The translations under genes were made by a program, and so were the position numbers. From IMG/VR virus record IMGVR_UViG_3300035199_000428, positions 1-36,333 of that record: a DNA stretch of 36,333 nt; one strand, given 5' to 3'. The notes beneath the pieces are model-generated. The model was not told the origin of the DNA. It made no database searches and saw nothing but the letters and a program-made list of their open reading frames with translations. Of this stretch, positions 3,829-36,333 are shown one piece after another; the stretch's first letter is position 1; every line of letters begins with the position of its first letter. The stretch comes from a virus.

Positions 3829-3903
3829 CCCCTAAACTTGAGAAATTCTCGCTGACCTGCTGGCTACCCATTATACCCGAACCGGAAGGTTTGAAAAAGA
3901 CAG

Positions 3904-3977
<74 letters not shown>

Positions 3978-26070: not shown

Positions 26071-29000
26071 ATGATTTTGACAAAATCAGAGTATATATCT
26101 TCTATTAACTCTCTATTAGCAGACAATTCTACTCAACAGATTTCCCCAGAAGACCTAAGAACTAGTCTTGCTAATTTAGTGGACTCAGTTCCTAGTTTTT
26201 TGGTAAATCAAAAGATAGTTGCAGCTAATATATCAACTGAAGACACTAGAACAACTAGAGTTGGAGAGCTTGCATTAGATAAAATGAATCTAGCAGGTAG
26301 ATCTAGTGTAGATAACTCTGCTTTTGGTTACTATGCTTTAGGTGCTAATTTTACTGGAAGTGATAACACCGCTATTGGATCACATGCACTAGGCTGTAAT
26401 TTATACGGTCATCATAATATTGGTGTTGGTTTTAACGCTGTAGCTGGGAATGTAACAGGCTCAGGAAATGTTGGTTTAGGTAACTTCGCCCTTCAAACAA
26501 CAAAAAAGGGCGATTTTAATATTGCTATTGGTCACGGGGCAGGTCATTATATTGGGGAAGATTCAAGTTATAACCTATATGTTGGAGCGTATGGCGTAGA
26601 CGCTGAGAACTTGTGTGGAATAGAGACGGGGTCTGGATCACCTCCCCTGCTTTTTGGCGATTTGCAAAATCTTAAATTGGGTGTTGGGGTAAAAACACTT
26701 CATGATTATGGTGCTGTACAAGTTTCTGGAGATATGTCTCCCGCAGCTACTGGAGTATTTAGTGTTGGAAACAGCAATTATCCTTGGAAGTCTGTTAATG
26801 AAACAATATATTTTTCGGGTGGCAAAGCTTCTGTTGGAACTGAATGGCCATCTGGCGACCAAGGAATAATGACAGTAGCTGGTCATGTAGTTCCAAAAGA
26901 TGATAACATTTATGCGATAGGTCACCCAGAGTTAAAATGGGACGGTTATTTTAATGATATCTTAGTTAGCGGTAACGCTATTATTAATGACCTGCAATAT
27001 CACACTATAAATGATTGTCTATATGATTGTAAAACATTACATTTAGCTACTAGCGGCCTGTGTGATTCTTCAGATTACGGTTTTCATAATTCTGCTGTTT
27101 GTGGTTATTTAAGCGATCAAGCACTAGATGGAGCTGGTTTTGAAGTACACTCTAGTGGATATGATTATAGAAGAGACTATAGATTTATTTTTAAACACCC
27201 TGACCCCAACTTAACTTGTTTAGAGGTAGACAGTCATTGGGCTCGTGCTAGGTGGGAATCAAATATTAGTATCCAGATAGAATCTGGTAAGCACCTACAA
27301 ACTGATAGAGTTTTAGGTGATTCCAAGCTTTCTTTAGCTACTCAGAGCGGGTGTTATGGAGTATTTGTAAGAAGTTATCACCCGTCAGGTAATAGAACCT
27401 ATATCTCCCCAGAGGTGCATGTAAGCGGAGATTATAGTTACTCAGAGGATATCAATTTTATTGGTTCTTCTGGTACTCATTTTGGTGAAGACGGAAATCC
27501 CTCCGGTTATGATTTAACTGTATCTTACGGTGTTGTAGATTCAGGGGTCACTGTAGGACAAAAGTTTGCTAGTCGAATAAGCCAATCTATGTTAGGGTTT
27601 GGTTTAGAATATCATGATGAGATTTCTAATAGCGGTGATAGACTATCTGCTCATATTTATAATGGTCAATCAGAAATATTAGAGCCTTTTACTATCCTAA
27701 GAGGTGGAGGAATAGTAGAGAGATCTGGACTAGTTGGAATTACCAATAAGCCTCACACTGGTAATCCCGTCTTACCAGAGACAATATTTAACGTTCAGTC
27801 TTCTGGCACATGTGACATTAGATTTTCTTCTAGCAGTGGACATTTGGATGATAATCAACAGTGGTCTAGCAGGACTAGTTTAGAACTATTAGGAAACGGA
27901 AACACTCGTGCTTCCGGTCTTCATATTTCGTATAACCCAAGTGGTGACGGCACTTCTCTAGACCAAACCATTATAGACTTTTCGTTAATAAAACCTAGTG
28001 GAACAGTTGGACGTGAACTTGGATTTTTATCTGTTTCTGAAAGTGGATATGTAGGCATCGGCTCTACAAAAGACCACACTGGTAGGGAATTTGAACCTAA
28101 CGCCCCGCTGACTATATCACATAGTGGAGGAACACTTAGTGGAACAGTATCTCTGAGAGAGCAAAATTCTACTCCATCTCTTACTACCGACTTCGGTAAG
28201 CTGTATGTTAAGCCTAAAATCGTGGGTGATTATACACAGTCGCTATTTTTCTTAGACGACGGAGGTAACGAGTTTGATTTACTTGGAACTTCTAGCGATG
28301 GCAAGGGTGGTCACCTATATGGTGATATACATCATAATACTTTTGGTGGTTGGTATGCAGCAGGTGATGCTGATTCACGGGCTCTTGTTTATGACGATCC
28401 CAATACTAGCTCTTATCCTGTTGAACGTAATACTGTTCTTGGTTACAGGGCAGGTGAGACACTTTTTGTTTATGCTTCTGAAGACGAAATACCAACAAGG
28501 GATAATACCTTGTTGGGTATGCACGCCGGATCACAGCTAAAAGGAGTCTGTAACACTGTTGTTGGTTCTAATAGCTTTAGTGGTCCTAACCATGCTTCTG
28601 GTAACGTTGTTATAGGTTATCAGAACGCTGCTTATCCCTTAGAGTATGATGAGGACGGGAATTCCTTCCACAGAAGTCAGTATGCGGGTTATCCCATAAA
28701 TTCGATTTTAATTGGTACAGGACTTTTTTGGGATGATGAGATAACGGACATAGGAGATTATACGTTAGCAATTGGTTTTGGAACCACTCCGCTAATTAAA
28801 GGCTCTTTAGGAGGAGACAGGGGAAGAAATTTCTCTCTGTATTCTTTACCTTCTGATCATGCCGTTTTTTCTATTGTTGAAGATGAACATGTTTTTAGTA
28901 TCCAAAATGATAATGATGGATCTAGAGATTTAAGTATTATTAATATCCAAGACACAGACTCAGCACTTGATGCTAGAGGCTATTTGTCAATGAGGTTCAG

Positions 29001-30315
29001 TAACTCTGTTGGATTTGCTAAGACATTGGTTGACTTTGATCCTAGTGGCACTATGACCAATACACCATCTTTTGCTATTCCAAGTACTAGAAGACCTTTT
29101 GTTGCAATCAGTGGTGATCTTAGACTTAGGGGAGATATTAGATTTTCTGATGGATCAACACTAAGCACAGCTACTGTTGGTGATATTGATTTTACTAGTT
29201 TGCCTCTTGCTGTTGATGCAACGAGTACTAATACTTATGTTGCCGCTCAAGTTGACACAACGATGAGTAAAATGAGTTTACAGTCCTTAGCAAATTATGT
29301 GGGCAGTGGTTTTGCTAGCGTTGCTAATAACTGTAACCTTTTGTTTAGTAATGGTGAAGCAGATGTTGACACCATTAATAATTCCGGTTCTGTATTTATT
29401 GGTTGTGATGTTGCAACTCAAGCAACTGGGTGGAGACACTCAGTTATGATGGGAACGCAGGCTGGTGCTTATGCCGCTACTCCTAATGTTGGTTTAGATA
29501 CAGACACAGCTGTTACATTTATAGGTTATCGTGCTGGATATGATTCAGACAATATCGATAATTCTGTATTTATAGGAACAAACGCCGGTAATAATGCAGA
29601 TTCATCATCTGATTCAATATTTATTGGTTCTAGTGCTGGCTTGAATGCTACAAATCCAAACAGTATAGGTATTGGCGAAAACGCTATGCGTGGGAGCTAT
29701 GCTATTGGAGGTGCCGGGGGAACGGGTAATATCGAGATAGTGACAGCACTTCTCGACAATCAAAGGTTAATGTATGGGTCAGGACATCTTTCAAATAGGT
29801 TGAATATTCAGAATAGTATAGCAGGTAATACAAGTGAAAGACGTGTCTCTATTGGTGACGCTGTTCTTTCTCCTGACGCTCCGTTGTCTGTTAGAAGAGA
29901 TCCTACAATAACAGGCCACAGTTCTATATCAGGTATTCAAACTTGGTATGATGATGATGTTTTGCGAGCTTATGTAAATCCTTCTGGAGACTATGTTGTT
30001 CAAGCTAATACTGATAGCTATGATACCACTAAAGAAGTTCCTGCTAACTTTGGTCACTTAGAAGGAATCATGACAGAGTATATTTACGCCAATGCTGACC
30101 CCGCAGTTGGTTCAAGTGGATGGATGACTGTTAAAGTTTACGATGAGTGGTCTGGATATGCACCAGGAGGAAGCGAGGAAGGTACTGTGCTCGTTGTTAA
30201 TAGAGATCCAAAGCTAAATATTCATGGTCCAGGTGCTACAGGTGGAGCCGCCTATGTCATTACTGCTAGAGTAAATGGAGAAAATCGACCTATTTATGTG
30301 AGTTGTTCAGGCTAA
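26071..30315 (+). CDS. Long fibre/adhesin with YadA-like repeats
   Basis: 1414 aa. N terminus (1-60) is a likely virion attachment segment. Three clusters of YadA-head-like repeats (NTAIGxxAL, GxGN pattern) lie at about 80-170, 790-870 and 1105-1215, for example SDNTAIGSHALGCN and SVFIGTNAGNNA. Long beta-rich regions lie between, with repeated SGD/SSG turns. Such repeats form trimeric left-handed beta rolls, so the fibre is likely a trimer that binds host surfaces. No intramolecular chaperone is obvious at the C terminus (ARVNGENRPIYVSCSG). Confidence 0.75.
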   Translation: MILTKSEYISSINSLLADNSTQQISPEDLRTSLANLVDSVPSFLVNQKIVAANISTEDTRTTRVGELALDKMNLAGRSSVDNSAFGYYALGANFTGSDNTAIGSHALGCNLYGHHNIGVGFNAVAGNVTGSGNVGLGNFALQTTKKGDFNIAIGHGAGHYIGEDSSYNLYVGAYGVDAENLCGIETGSGSPPLLFGDLQNLKLGVGVKTLHDYGAVQVSGDMSPAATGVFSVGNSNYPWKSVNETIYFSGGKASVGTEWPSGDQGIMTVAGHVVPKDDNIYAIGHPELKWDGYFNDILVSGNAIINDLQYHTINDCLYDCKTLHLATSGLCDSSDYGFHNSAVCGYLSDQALDGAGFEVHSSGYDYRRDYRFIFKHPDPNLTCLEVDSHWARARWESNISIQIESGKHLQTDRVLGDSKLSLATQSGCYGVFVRSYHPSGNRTYISPEVHVSGDYSYSEDINFIGSSGTHFGEDGNPSGYDLTVSYGVVDSGVTVGQKFASRISQSMLGFGLEYHDEISNSGDRLSAHIYNGQSEILEPFTILRGGGIVERSGLVGITNKPHTGNPVLPETIFNVQSSGTCDIRFSSSSGHLDDNQQWSSRTSLELLGNGNTRASGLHISYNPSGDGTSLDQTIIDFSLIKPSGTVGRELGFLSVSESGYVGIGSTKDHTGREFEPNAPLTISHSGGTLSGTVSLREQNSTPSLTTDFGKLYVKPKIVGDYTQSLFFLDDGGNEFDLLGTSSDGKGGHLYGDIHHNTFGGWYAAGDADSRALVYDDPNTSSYPVERNTVLGYRAGETLFVYASEDEIPTRDNTLLGMHAGSQLKGVCNTVVGSNSFSGPNHASGNVVIGYQNAAYPLEYDEDGNSFHRSQYAGYPINSILIGTGLFWDDEITDIGDYTLAIGFGTTPLIKGSLGGDRGRNFSLYSLPSDHAVFSIVEDEHVFSIQNDNDGSRDLSIINIQDTDSALDARGYLSMRFSNSVGFAKTLVDFDPSGTMTNTPSFAIPSTRRPFVAISGDLRLRGDIRFSDGSTLSTATVGDIDFTSLPLAVDATSTNTYVAAQVDTTMSKMSLQSLANYVGSGFASVANNCNLLFSNGEADVDTINNSGSVFIGCDVATQATGWRHSVMMGTQAGAYAATPNVGLDTDTAVTFIGYRAGYDSDNIDNSVFIGTNAGNNADSSSDSIFIGSSAGLNATNPNSIGIGENAMRGSYAIGGAGGTGNIEIVTALLDNQRLMYGSGHLSNRLNIQNSIAGNTSERRVSIGDAVLSPDAPLSVRRDPTITGHSSISGIQTWYDDDVLRAYVNPSGDYVVQANTDSYDTTKEVPANFGHLEGIMTEYIYANADPAVGSSGWMTVKVYDEWSGYAPGGSEEGTVLVVNRDPKLNIHGPGATGGAAYVITARVNGENRPIYVSCSG

Positions 30316-30331
30316 TATTGGGGTTTACAGT

Positions 30332-33300
30332 ATGTCGAATTGTTGTTGTGTTACTCCACCGCCAACGGAAGTTACAACTGGGGCATGTTGTTTCTTAGAC
30401 TCGTCTATCGTACAGGTTCCAAATTATGTCATTTCGCATCAAGATCCCGAATATGTTAATGCTGTTGAGCATGATGGCGATCTTACATGTGAAGAAGAAG
30501 TAAATGTACTTGATTGCCTCTCTAGGACTAATAGTAGATTTTACTTGAATAGTGACTGCGTTGACGAAATAGTAGACAATTGCTCAGAAGTAACTTGTTT
30601 TATAGCTGACTCTAAGGTATTGCTGAGCGATGGAACTTATAAAAACATACAAGATGTTTCTATTGGCGATAAGGTAAAATCTCTAAACAGTGATAATAAT
30701 GTCATAGGTTTAGAAAGAACCGTTCTTGGTCGCAGAAAACTAGTATCTTTAAATGGATCGAAAGCTTTCTTTAGCTACGATCATCCAATTTATACTGAAG
30801 ACGGATTAAAGTCTGTAGATTCGGATGTCGCCTCTACTTTATATCCCCACCTAGATATCGTGGGGGATCTTGAGATTGGAGATGTAATTATAACTCCAAG
30901 AGGTGAAGAATCTGTTCAAACGATTGAGTTGAAAGAAAGCGATGAGGAAACAGCACTTTATGATCTAAAGTTAGACGGAAACAACATTTATTTTGTAGAG
31001 AACGTGGCTGTTCACAACTGTAGTAGAAGACCTTGTTGTGATTGGAGTACTCTTACTTGTACTTATAATTATGACGTGTGCGGTGGCGAGGGAGGAGGAG
31101 GAGGGGTAATCCACCCTAGAGCCATTAAAGAGATTGCTAGGGTTACGGGAGATGTGCACCAAACTCCTACTACCATTACAATTACTTACAGTTTTATAAT
31201 TGCAGGAACTATGATACTTAATGAAGGATATCCAGTTCATTCAAGTAGCACTCTTGAGTCCAGCGGTGTAACCCATGAACAATTTGTATCAACAACAGAA
31301 ACATCGTTGGCGATTTGGAAAGCAGCTTTTGAGCATATATGCCCTTGGCTTACGTTGAACTTTGTTAACTTAGGTGATGAGCTTGATAATAACATACCCA
31401 GTGATGGTAATATAGATACAACATATTCTATACCTAATAACAGTAATGTTGGAGATTTTAGGTTCGGAATGCATAAATTTGATGGACCTCGGAGTGTTTT
31501 AGCTCATGGATATTATCCTCAATCAAATAGTCGATTAGGATCAATAGGATCAGTAGCAGGTGATTCTCATTACGATTCTGCTGAAACATGGAGAATGGAT
31601 GGGGTTGACACAGGTTCTGGATTTACTATTAAAAGAACACTGGTTCATGAAATAGGACACATGATAGGTATTGCCCATCTGTGCAGAAATTGTGGGTTTA
31701 CAACTATTATGGCGGGCGGTGGGGCTAATGAAGGTATAGATTTTGATGTATTATGGCCTAATGGTGTAATAGGAAGTGCAACTGATTTAGATGGTCTTAA
31801 AGAAGTATATCCTCCTGCTACAAATAAGAGTTTAGTTAACAGGTGTAAGGACTGTACCTCTACCAGTACAACTCAAACTAGTACTACTACTACTACTACT
31901 ACCGCAAAACCAACCGGTGCTTGCTGTACTGATGAGGGAGATTGTCTTGGTACTGATTTAACTTCTCAAGAATGTTCAGGTTTAGGAAATTGGCATGAAG
32001 ATCAGGGCTGTGAAGTGTGCGACACTACGACTACTAGTACTACTAGTACTACTACTAGTACTACTGGTACTTCCACTACGACAACTACCGCAGGTCCAGC
32101 ATGTCCTGATGAATCATGTGAGCCTCATTATTGGGCGGCTGATTTTGAAGGTTGTCCTGAAGCACATAGTACAGTTCTTTGTGTACCAAATGTAAATAAT
32201 ACTTATTCAGGAACTGGAGAATATAGTTGTGGAGGTGGGTTTAGTGGTTCCTGGAAGTGTGATCCAACTAAAGCCGGTGACGATCCTGCTAGATGGACAG
32301 TTTTAAGTTTTTCCACTGATTGTTTTACAGGAGTGTCTTTGACTGGAGCAACTCTTAGTCCAGGAGATTCTCAAAATCCTCCGACGTGGGAGTTTACAGC
32401 AACTGGAGCTGGTAATTGTGGCTGTTGTGGGGGGGGGACAACAACAACATCAACACCGCAGACTGGTTGTTGCTGTGTTGATCAAGGTGGTGGTAGCTGG
32501 TCGTCATCCGGTGGTAAGACAGAAGAGGAGTGTACGGCTAGTGCTACTACGACAAAGTGGTTTGCTACAGACGACGGATCTTGTTATAACGTTGAGTGTT
32601 CAGATCCTGAACCTGATCCTGAACCTCCCACTGGTGATCCTGAACCTCCCACTGGTGATCCTGAACCTCCCACTGGTGATCCTGAACCTCCTGTTGGTCC
32701 TCCTGAACCTCCTGGAAAACGATCTACTACAACTACTCCTGAGCCACCACCGGCATGTCCTGAGACGGCGTGTAGTCCACATTACTGGTCGATTAATTTT
32801 CAAGGTTGTCCTGTAGAAGTAAATACGGTAATTTGTGGAGATAACGATGGCAACAATAAGTACTCAGGAAAGGATGAATATAGTTGTGGGGGCAGCTTTA
32901 GCGGATCTTTCGTTTGCGATCCAAGTAAGTATGCTGATGACCCTTATAGATGGACAAGTCCTGAACTTAGTACGGATTGTTTTACAGGAGTGTCTTTTAC
33001 TGGAGAAATTCTTAGTCCAGGAGGTGCTGATACGCCTCATACTTGGGAGTTTACAGCGACCGGTCTTGGTGGTTGTGGTTGTTGTACAACCACTACCACG
33101 GCAACTCCAGGATCTTGCTGTAATACTGAAACTGGACAATGTACGGAGTATGACTATGTAACGTGTATTAATCTAGCAACAACAGTCAACTTTGCGTCTT
33201 TAATGTGGATTGATGGAGGATGTGAAGATTGTCCGCAACCCACAACTACTCCTGGACCAGGAGAAGGATTAGGAGCTTGTTGTTTTGAAACAGAAGATGG

Positions 33301-35833
33301 AATCGATTGTAAGAATAATCTAACTGATGCAGAATGTGCATTTGAAGGAACTGAAGACACTGTACCTGGCTTTTTCCTAGGAAAGACGTGTATTGACGTA
33401 GGATGTATAACAAGTACGACTACTACGACCACGACTACGTCAGAGCCTACGACTACGCCGAAACCGTCTGACTATCCTGATGGATGTTATGTGTGTAGAT
33501 CCTGCGTTGATAAAATAATCGGAGTCCTAGCCAACAGTGATGAATGTATGTTCTACAGTAACTGTTTATACTATGAAAAAAATTATCCCAGTTGTGTTTA
33601 TGCACTAGAGAAAAAAGAAGTTTGCGAACTGGCTTGTGCTATCACAACTACCACAACTACTACAATCGAGCCTACAACTACGACCACGACTACGTCAGAA
33701 CCGGAAGATACTACGACCACGACCACGACAGATCCGGAAGATACTACGACCACGACAGATCCTTCGGGCGATCCAGGTGACGAGGGTGCTTGTTGTGTCC
33801 TAGGTGCGATGGATAATAAATGGCGTTGTAATATACACACGAGATCTCAGTGCGATACTCTTCGATCTACGACACTAACAATTTTCCATAAAGATACAGC
33901 TTGTGAGCCTTCCCCTTGTCCTCCTGATCCCACTACTACTCCTGATCCAGATGATCCCTGTGGTGGAAATAAATGTACTTGGAAATACCAAGATAACGAA
34001 ACACCTGAAGGTGTGTGGACCTTAATAGAGACATGTCCCGAGGGTTGTCAATGTCCAGAGCATGGAGCAGAACCTCTTGGTGGTGAATTTACAACATTCA
34101 AATGCATACCAGGGACTACAACCACAACTCCTGAACCTACGACCACAACAACTACTACACTAGCTCCAGAACAGATGTATTCATGCAAAAGCCAGCTTAT
34201 TGATGGCTTCGAAACGCGGTCATGTCAAATAGACGAGAATGGAACACAAACAAAGGAACAATGTGAGAAAGATTGCGTTGTTGTAGAATACGGTTTTTGT
34301 TGTGATACAAGTCATGTTGCAGAGCCTGATTCTGGAAACGGAAAATGCAAGAAAGATCCCGCCGGTCTCCCATACACCTCTCAGGATAAGTGTGACACCG
34401 CTGGTGGTATATGGTATGACGACGAAATTGAAAGTTGCTTTGACTGTCCCGTCACTCCAACCACAACCACAACCACTGGACCTCCTCCACTGGGAGTTTG
34501 TTGTCCAGGATTTTTGGGTGATTGTAGCATTACTATTGAAGCTGAGTGTTACCACGATACGATTGAGGGAGCTGGAGGAGAATGGACATCATATAGCGAT
34601 ACTTTTACTCCAGAAGGGCAACCTACTTGTGACGAGGTTTGCCCAAAGGGTACTTGTTGTTACTATGGGGGTGCATGTGAAGCTTTAACACAGAAGGCTT
34701 GCGGTCTCTTGCCAGATTCCGTTTGGTATCAGAAGAACAGTCAAATAAATCCGAACGCCACCCCGCCGGATTGTGAAACTTGTCCTACACCACCACCAAA
34801 CTCATGTCATTGTGCTAATCCTTCATTAGATACTATAAATGATTTTGGAAAAGATATTGGATACACCTTTAAAACCAACTGTATAACCAGTGAAAAAAGT
34901 ACGCCGTGTGATGGGGAATGTGAATGGATCGTTAGAGGTGGACCGGAATTAGGTGCTGATTATATTCATTTCGTGCCCACTTTAGAAGGTCAAGGTCAGT
35001 TTGCTCACTCATTCTTTGCTATTACTAATAAAAACCTCGATAATTACTGTGGCACATGTGATAACACAACGTGTTATTGGAAAGAATCTGACGGCAAATG
35101 GGAACGGGATTACGTGCAAAGCTTAGAGTGTTGTGATGGATATGAATGTGTCGAACCGAATTATACTCCCGAACGTAATGCAACAGCCTCAACGCCCTGT
35201 AAGACAACCACTACAACAACAGAAGCTCCAGGAGTCTGTTGTGATACGGAATTAGGAGAGTGTACTACTCGTACTAAAGAAGATTGTACTGGTGATAGAT
35301 ATTCCTTCTTAGAGGGAGATTGCGATGTTTGTCCCTCCGCAACACACGGTCTTTGTTGTTTTGAGAGTGATGAATCCCCGCCCGTAAAGCAATGTTCGTA
35401 TCTCACAGAGCCAGAGTGTTCAGATCTTCACGGAGATTGGTATCAAGGACAACAACTTGAGAATTGCAACGAGATTTGTGCTGAAGATCCGGGTGAGTGG
35501 CATTGTAGTGCCGGGGACGGGTGTTATCGGGGGGCAGGGGGTTATTATACCTCATTTGATGATTGTGCAGGCATTGGTATAGACGACCCAGAAACAGAAA
35601 ACAAATGTGGATGGGGATCTTGTTGTCATACATACAAATATCCAGGCTATGAAGTGGTTTATACAAGCTGTATGATGACAGACAAGCAGGGGTGTGACTG
35701 GTGGACAGACCAGGATTGGACCATATCCGCAGTTTTCCACCCTGGAAAGACATGTAGAAGAAGAGACCCTGCAACCTGGGGCTCCACAGCTGATGATTAT
35801 GTAGTGGCACCATGTGCTACCCCTTACGGCTAA
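30332..35833 (+). CDS. Intein-metzincin-Cys-repeat giant virion protein
   Basis: 1833 aa. Order: Cys-rich start (1-88); Hint/mini-intein (89-229, cut sites C89 and N229/C230); Gly linker; metzincin zinc protease (about 260-495) with HEIGHMIGIAH (439-449) and Met-turn TIM (M460); then Thr linkers alternating with about a dozen Cys-rich units of GACC type, e.g. at 529, 927 and 981. Two paralogous domains of about 110 aa occur at 590-699 and 808-918. Pro-rich DPEPPTG repeats lie at 762-789. Probably a surface adhesin/enzyme of the virion, since GACC-type units and the Thr linkers suit an extracellular stalk. Ribosome site weak (GGGG at 9 nt). Confidence 0.75.
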   Translation: MSNCCCVTPPPTEVTTGACCFLDSSIVQVPNYVISHQDPEYVNAVEHDGDLTCEEEVNVLDCLSRTNSRFYLNSDCVDEIVDNCSEVTCFIADSKVLLSDGTYKNIQDVSIGDKVKSLNSDNNVIGLERTVLGRRKLVSLNGSKAFFSYDHPIYTEDGLKSVDSDVASTLYPHLDIVGDLEIGDVIITPRGEESVQTIELKESDEETALYDLKLDGNNIYFVENVAVHNCSRRPCCDWSTLTCTYNYDVCGGEGGGGGVIHPRAIKEIARVTGDVHQTPTTITITYSFIIAGTMILNEGYPVHSSSTLESSGVTHEQFVSTTETSLAIWKAAFEHICPWLTLNFVNLGDELDNNIPSDGNIDTTYSIPNNSNVGDFRFGMHKFDGPRSVLAHGYYPQSNSRLGSIGSVAGDSHYDSAETWRMDGVDTGSGFTIKRTLVHEIGHMIGIAHLCRNCGFTTIMAGGGANEGIDFDVLWPNGVIGSATDLDGLKEVYPPATNKSLVNRCKDCTSTSTTQTSTTTTTTTAKPTGACCTDEGDCLGTDLTSQECSGLGNWHEDQGCEVCDTTTTSTTSTTTSTTGTSTTTTTAGPACPDESCEPHYWAADFEGCPEAHSTVLCVPNVNNTYSGTGEYSCGGGFSGSWKCDPTKAGDDPARWTVLSFSTDCFTGVSLTGATLSPGDSQNPPTWEFTATGAGNCGCCGGGTTTTSTPQTGCCCVDQGGGSWSSSGGKTEEECTASATTTKWFATDDGSCYNVECSDPEPDPEPPTGDPEPPTGDPEPPTGDPEPPVGPPEPPGKRSTTTTPEPPPACPETACSPHYWSINFQGCPVEVNTVICGDNDGNNKYSGKDEYSCGGSFSGSFVCDPSKYADDPYRWTSPELSTDCFTGVSFTGEILSPGGADTPHTWEFTATGLGGCGCCTTTTTATPGSCCNTETGQCTEYDYVTCINLATTVNFASLMWIDGGCEDCPQPTTTPGPGEGLGACCFETEDGIDCKNNLTDAECAFEGTEDTVPGFFLGKTCIDVGCITSTTTTTTTTSEPTTTPKPSDYPDGCYVCRSCVDKIIGVLANSDECMFYSNCLYYEKNYPSCVYALEKKEVCELACAITTTTTTTIEPTTTTTTTSEPEDTTTTTTTDPEDTTTTTDPSGDPGDEGACCVLGAMDNKWRCNIHTRSQCDTLRSTTLTIFHKDTACEPSPCPPDPTTTPDPDDPCGGNKCTWKYQDNETPEGVWTLIETCPEGCQCPEHGAEPLGGEFTTFKCIPGTTTTTPEPTTTTTTTLAPEQMYSCKSQLIDGFETRSCQIDENGTQTKEQCEKDCVVVEYGFCCDTSHVAEPDSGNGKCKKDPAGLPYTSQDKCDTAGGIWYDDEIESCFDCPVTPTTTTTTGPPPLGVCCPGFLGDCSITIEAECYHDTIEGAGGEWTSYSDTFTPEGQPTCDEVCPKGTCCYYGGACEALTQKACGLLPDSVWYQKNSQINPNATPPDCETCPTPPPNSCHCANPSLDTINDFGKDIGYTFKTNCITSEKSTPCDGECEWIVRGGPELGADYIHFVPTLEGQGQFAHSFFAITNKNLDNYCGTCDNTTCYWKESDGKWERDYVQSLECCDGYECVEPNYTPERNATASTPCKTTTTTTEAPGVCCDTELGECTTRTKEDCTGDRYSFLEGDCDVCPSATHGLCCFESDESPPVKQCSYLTEPECSDLHGDWYQGQQLENCNEICAEDPGEWHCSAGDGCYRGAGGYYTSFDDCAGIGIDDPETENKCGWGSCCHTYKYPGYEVVYTSCMMTDKQGCDWWTDQDWTISAVFHPGKTCRRRDPATWGSTADDYVVAPCATPYG
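30596..31018 (+). other. Hint domain / mini-intein (141 aa)
   Basis: Encodes residues 89-229 of the giant protein. Block A-like CFIADSKVLLSDGTYKNI begins with Cys; a His-containing block (SYDHPIYTEDGLKSV, H151) suits the catalytic block B; the end LYDLKLDGNNIYFVENVAVHN is a classic block F/G, followed by C230. All residues for Cys-type protein splicing are present. At 141 aa there is no room for a homing endonuclease. A bacterial-intein-like (BIL) domain is the main alternative. Confidence 0.82.
32615..32698 (+). repeat. 21-bp tandem repeat, 4 copies
   Basis: GATCCTGAACCTCCCACTGG (T) repeated three times exactly plus one variant, encoding DPEPPTG units that form a rigid Pro-rich spacer between Cys-rich domains. 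Confidence 0.9.
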
Positions 35834-35881: not shown

Positions 35882-36333
35882 ATGCAAAAACTAACTATTG
35901 GAATGGCTCATCACACTGATTTTGATGGAGCGTATTTTACGATTCAAGACATTAGAAAGGAGTTAATATTTAACAATAGGGGAGATTTACTACAAAATAT
36001 CGAATTTGTTATTGTAGAGAACAATAAAGACAGTAACCATGGCAGAACTCTTGAAAGGTTTGCTCGTAATAACGTTTCACCAGTAAATGTTATAAAGTTA
36101 GACTCAACCTATGGAACTTCTGCTACCAGAAATAAGATTGTAGAAGAGGCGACAGGACAGTTTGTATTAGTACTAGATTGCCATGTAATGCTATGCCCTA
36201 CAGTCAAAGTAATAGAGGATTTATTTACCTTTATGGAGTATAATAGAAACACAAACAACCTTTATTCGGGCCCTTTGGTGTATGATAATATGAGAAGTAT
36301 ATCTACTCACTATAATGACGAGTGGGGTGGGCA
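35882..36333 (+). CDS. Glycosyltransferase family 2-like (partial)
   Basis: Truncated by the window end; 150 codons seen. GT-A fold: the N-terminal strand LTIGMAHHTDFDGAYFT, then FVIVENNKDSNHGRTL, YGTSATRNKIVEEATGQFVL and VLDCHVML. The D-C-H triplet takes the place of the usual DxD metal motif (DxH variant). It transfers a sugar from a nucleotide donor. AGGAAAGG precedes the ATG. It fits the sugar cassette at 12.7-16.3 kb. Confidence 0.75.
   Translation, partial: MQKLTIGMAHHTDFDGAYFTIQDIRKELIFNNRGDLLQNIEFVIVENNKDSNHGRTLERFARNNVSPVNVIKLDSTYGTSATRNKIVEEATGQFVLVLDCHVMLCPTVKVIEDLFTFMEYNRNTNNLYSGPLVYDNMRSISTHYNDEWGG

Follow-up and report, generated by a model that had tools for sequence, protein, structure and literature searches.

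The usual account of inteins is that they parasitise conserved enzymes, and that of bacterial intein-like (BIL) domains is that they serve cleavage in variable proteins. The question here is which of these accounts applies to a Hint domain situated in a large Cys/Thr-rich protein of a marine-type phage, the virus record IMGVR_UViG_3300035199_000428. The window, that is the whole stretch of DNA analysed, is the entire record of 36,333 bases.

The Hint domain and its host protein

The initial annotation placed a complete mini-intein or BIL domain in this protein and named C89, the His of SYDH, a terminal H-N pair and C230 as its splice-site residues. All of these residues were located with exact coordinates, and the reading frame is open across the whole Hint segment of the window. 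The features are listed below.

30332..35833, + strand: host precursor protein, large and Cys/Thr-rich, 1833 aa (single open frame, ATG start)
30332..30595, + strand: N-extein, the N-terminal Cys-rich module, aa 1-88 (MSNCCCVTPPP...GACC...), common to Hint-bearing and Hint-less relatives
30596..31018, + strand: Hint / putative mini-intein domain, aa 89-229, 141 aa, no endonuclease (Pfam, PDB, AlphaFold and Foldseek matches)
30596..30598, + strand: Cys1 (C89), the predicted N-terminal nucleophile and sole Cys within the window domain; invariant in 13/13 loci
30773..30784, + strand: block B, S148-Y-D-H151 (S/T-x-x-H); D, H and P invariant
30962..30964, + strand: block F Asp211 (YDL motif), invariant
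30983..30985, + strand: Asn218, at the usual block-F His position by alignment; His in most relatives
31013..31018, + strand: block G penultimate His228 and terminal Asn229, invariant
31019..31021, + strand: Cys+1 (C230), the predicted C-extein nucleophile; 13/13 in the window family
31019..31081, + strand: first Cys module of the C-extein, CSRRPCCDWSTLTCTYNYDVC
31469..31678, + strand: M10/metzincin peptidase domain in the C-extein (Pfam PF00413, 1.6e-11)
31646-31678, + strand: metzincin motif HEIGHMIGIAH, aa 439-449
31883..35830, + strand: stalk-like region, repeated Cys-rich units with poly-Thr linkers between them

The profile check proposed in the initial annotation gave matches to the window Hint alone (Pfam Hint, 9.7e-6; Vint, 1.7e-5; Hom_end_hint, 2.2e-5), but all of these single-sequence scores are below the curated cut-offs, and a Pfam Hint_2 search of the virus record found nothing. 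When the window Hint was searched against PDB as a single sequence, the best match was a bacterial intein-like domain; with a 13-sequence profile, the gp41-1 intein came out best (7.1e-8), with a BIL behind at 5.7e-6. An AlphaFold2 model built from the 13-sequence alignment has a pLDDT of 96.3 and a pTM of 0.88. Foldseek matched this model in PDB to Tetrahymena BIL2 (1e-9), the gp41-1 intein (1.7e-8) and a C. thermocellum BIL (2.1e-8), followed by many inteins and Hedgehog. Chance resemblance is excluded by 12 full-length homologous loci together with the match of the model to solved Hint structures (E down to 1e-9). The description of a complete domain with all splice-site residues is supported. 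No LAGLIDADG or HNH endonuclease was seen by Pfam or in the AlphaFold model, the domain having 141 aa and no extra domain. A class 3 intein, which lacks Cys1/Ser1 and has a WCT motif with a block-F Cys, was rejected, since C1 is present and the window domain contains no other Cys.

The host frame (30332-35833) encodes 140 Cys and 15 runs of at least 4 Thr, and the poly-Thr linkers between the Cys-rich units give 31883-35833 a mucin-like make-up. A family 2 glycosyltransferase gene (35882-36331) follows directly, and it is possible that the Cys/Thr-rich stalk is O-glycosylated. Just upstream, at 26071-30315, is a 1414-aa protein with repeated adhesin-head-like motifs (GxxNTAIGxxAL), apparently divided into two ORFs in relatives. 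The window also holds a single tRNA gene, for tRNA-Asp, at 3903-3977 on the - strand. Where the gene order is visible in the loci described below, it runs from a head protein through one or more long tail-like proteins to the Cys-rich protein and then the family 2 glycosyltransferase. This order, together with composition, points to a virion component, which is probably at the virion surface. Of the earlier label of a Cys-rich virion adhesin, the Cys-rich part stands, while "virion" and "adhesin" rest on gene order and composition.

Relatives that carry the domain

Neither the window Hint nor the protease region, used directly as a query, gave a close viral relative. Relatives were reached by synteny through the terminase, which led to hundreds of related phage contigs, and a Hint-bearing Cys-rich protein was present in 5 of 43 terminase-related records. 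With a six-sequence alignment as query, 12 further loci were found in IMG/VR, whose Hints have 140-144 aa, match over their full length and are 44-63% identical to that of the window. Their host proteins are Cys-rich as well and start with a motif like M-x-x-C-C-x-C-x-G-T-P-P-P. The Hint had been placed within the first Cys-rich unit, which is roughly correct: it follows the first N-terminal Cys unit in the window and in most loci, and comes after several units in L096. The relatives are metagenomic fragments, and a search of GTDB genome contigs confirmed none of cellular origin.

Catalytic residues that varied freely among homologues had been named as evidence against the annotation. Across the 13 loci (12 distinct Hints), Cys1, S/T-x-x-H, the block-F Asp, the final HN and Cys+1 are instead invariant. 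Block B reads SYDH, SDDH, TDDH or TFDH, residue -1 is Thr in 12 loci and Ser in one, and the window, L101, L104 and L107 have Asn in place of the block-F His. In a protein that is otherwise rich in Cys and changes fast, the Hint alone is poor in Cys and evolves slowly: its Cys content is 0.7-2.1% (1 to 3 Cys) versus 8-18% in the host protein outside it, and the sole Cys shared by all Hints is Cys1. In the two pairs with unsaturated dS, the Hint dN/dS is 0.07 and 0.15, and over the 100 aa after the Hint identity is 21-50%, against 63-76% for the Hint itself when the same non-identical pairs are compared. We account for the invariance of the catalytic set by selection and not as a by-product of Cys richness, because the Hint is low in Cys, only Cys1 is universal, dN/dS is low and the flank diverges.

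The initial annotation also suggested that splicing could control when the stalk or the protease is activated. The matrixin-type metzincin, with its motif, occurs in the window protein only and is absent from the 12 other Hint-bearing relatives, so a general protease-regulating role is unlikely and this part of the suggestion falls. Splicing may still play a part in stalk maturation.

Hint-less relatives and the wider phage family

Comparison with homologues without the insert, also proposed at the outset, showed a shared N-terminal side and weak homology on the other. The N-module is shared by the Hint-less relatives L112, L115/L129/L130, L119/L132, L139 and L141 (for example, MTQCCQCDGLVTPPPPP...GACC...C...C), and in all of these except L139 it leads directly into Thr-rich linkers and then more Cys units. 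Excision of the Hint in silico gives a layout equal to that of these relatives. In L139 a Cys module comes after the N-module, which resembles an empty site, as do L113/L114/L118 (TACGEVDCPGYYC) when compared with L106 (TACGPCNLT|CSYVLFC). The empty-site comparison was run by HMM, shuffle test and pairwise alignment. When sequences were shuffled with Cys positions fixed, only the comparison with L106 gave consistently significant similarity on the C-side (p 0.002-0.008); in pairwise global alignment the gap is not cleanly placed, and the C-side alignment of the Hint-less L139 and L113 is weak. These comparisons suggest an exact empty site and do not prove one.

Searching viral contigs with the 13-sequence alignment brought up at least 221 relatives. 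Among the 80 relatives kept, every complete sequence has Cys1 and His-Asn, and the +1 residue of 64 distinct sequences is Lys in 48, Cys in 14 and Arg in 2. The Cys+1 set consists of the window family, L147/L148 and L194, all with Cys-rich hosts, and Cys+1 is confounded with the Cys-rich host, in which other nearby Cys are also conserved. A modestly supported branch (79/76; 74% of bootstrap trees) separates this set from the rest, and the direction between Lys and Cys is unrooted, the outgroup of phage terminase and helicase inteins being split by long branches.

The other members (L152-L221 in IMG/VR) make up a large group of phage Hints in which the terminal HN is followed at once by Lys or, rarely, Arg. 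This Lys ends the protein in six distinct sequences; other members are in Gly-rich linkers or tandem Hints. Tandem Hints with a short linker (for example, RGGC or KG) between them are seen in phage proteins at L152, L153, L154, L155, L157 and L170. In two cultured phages, Providencia phage PSTNGR1 (L222) and Achromobacter phage 2-1 (L225), a Hint without a terminal HN is near the C-terminal end of the protein, which suggests N-terminal cleavage types. Outside the window family, a scan of IMG/VR for the block-G motif HN|C found many proteins, enzymes as judged by their flanking motifs, that are interrupted at sites usual for inteins, like DE|CF...HN|CH; as the scan demanded an intein-like motif, these cases are consistent with splicing and not independent proof of it. 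In the open-access papers searched, the inteins reported from phages lie in terminase, RNR and helicase genes, and the Hint family of the window is undescribed there.

Splicing, cleavage or transfer

The explanation that we consider reasonably probable is a class-1-type mini-intein in a BIL-like context, without an endonuclease, whose splicing would leave the N-module ligated to the stalk. Cys89 would take the N-module as a thioester and Cys230 would capture it by transesterification; Asn229, aided by His228, would then cyclise and release the Hint, and an S-to-N shift would leave T88 joined to C230. The mature protein would pass from the N-module straight into the Cys/Thr-rich stalk, as the Hint-less relatives encode. 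We infer that the window Hint is spliced, and that this occurs before virion assembly. One may speculate that the Hint is removed in the reducing cytoplasm, ahead of stalk disulfide formation. The class 1 mini-intein gp41-1 (PDB 6qaz) shares the Hint fold (TM 0.70), Cys1, S/T-x-x-H, the block-F Asp, the HN end and the +1 nucleophile; it differs in that the host in the window is a hypervariable, Cys-rich and probably virion-surface protein and no conserved enzyme, in the identity of about 19%, and in the block-F Asn of the window. This host, the block-F Asn, the intein models below cut-offs, the confounding of Cys+1 with Cys richness and the weak C-side match at the putative empty site are evidence against splicing. 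Inteins, for their part, tolerate many active-site changes.

The same host brings up BIL-like autoprocessing, in which thioester hydrolysis at C89 and Asn cyclisation at N229 would mainly cleave one or both junctions with little ligation, leaving the N-module released or attached non-covalently or by a disulfide. Hypervariable, non-enzymatic hosts are typical of BILs and not of inteins (PMC7765530), and a modular host of this kind is their described setting. The nearest solved folds to the model include the A-type BILs of C. thermocellum (2lwy) and T. thermophila (BIL2, 6y75), with a TM of about 0.8 and the HN end in common, and the closest Hints outside the clade have BIL-like ends with Lys+1. 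By definition, however, BILs lack the +1 nucleophile that is invariant in the window family, and a BIL is reported to have regained splicing once its +1 residue was changed to Cys (PMC4031507, PMC7664689). Cys+1 in 13 of 13 loci, while most related phage Hints have Lys+1, is why the intein side is favoured; the spliced layout is also that of the Hint-less relatives. We regard predominant cleavage as unlikely.

Two further readings appear very improbable. In a hedgehog-like transfer, the C89 thioester would be captured by another molecule, which might be a sugar, a small thiol or a different virion subunit reacting through Lys or Cys, and the N-module would be anchored covalently elsewhere. Hint chemistry permits this, the Hedgehog autoprocessing domain (1at0) shares the fold and the N-terminal Cys, and the Lys+1 relatives retain a reactive +1 side chain, at the very end of the protein in the six sequences noted above. 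However, HN and Cys+1 are unneeded for transfer and yet invariant in the window family, the Hedgehog domain is without HN/+1 chemistry, and neither an acceptor-binding region nor a sterol-recognition region is seen in the window Hint; Hedgehog itself was rejected for these missing features. There is equally little chance that the Hint is inactive or purely structural, a spacer in the stalk. The protein is modular with many domain swaps, as such a spacer would suit, but the catalytic residues stay invariant while the rest diverges, under purifying selection.

By sequence and fold, the closest known proteins are those annotated "Hint domain containing protein" in uncultured Caudovirales (BFVD A0A6J5QBT6 and A0A6J5M6E1; IMG/VR L152-L221). 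Like the splicing candidate in the window they are structural-looking phage proteins, whereas at +1 they carry Lys (in 48 of 50 distinct non-Cys sequences), frequently within Gly-rich linkers, in tandem or as the last residue. A bolder proposal, which we hold to be rather doubtful, is that this family is kept by phages because it matures their surface proteins, and is no selfish insert. Where +1 is Lys, the side chain or amino group of that residue would capture the thioester (isopeptide or nucleophile-free ligation), and in the Cys-rich branch ordinary Cys+1 splicing would be timed before the stalk disulfides.

The window Hint thus combines intein residues with a BIL-like habitat, an unusual location for such an element. 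With a large Lys+1 sister family adjoining it, the boundary between inteins and BILs becomes testable within one set of homologues, and the window family could supply small inteins adapted to Cys-rich exteins.
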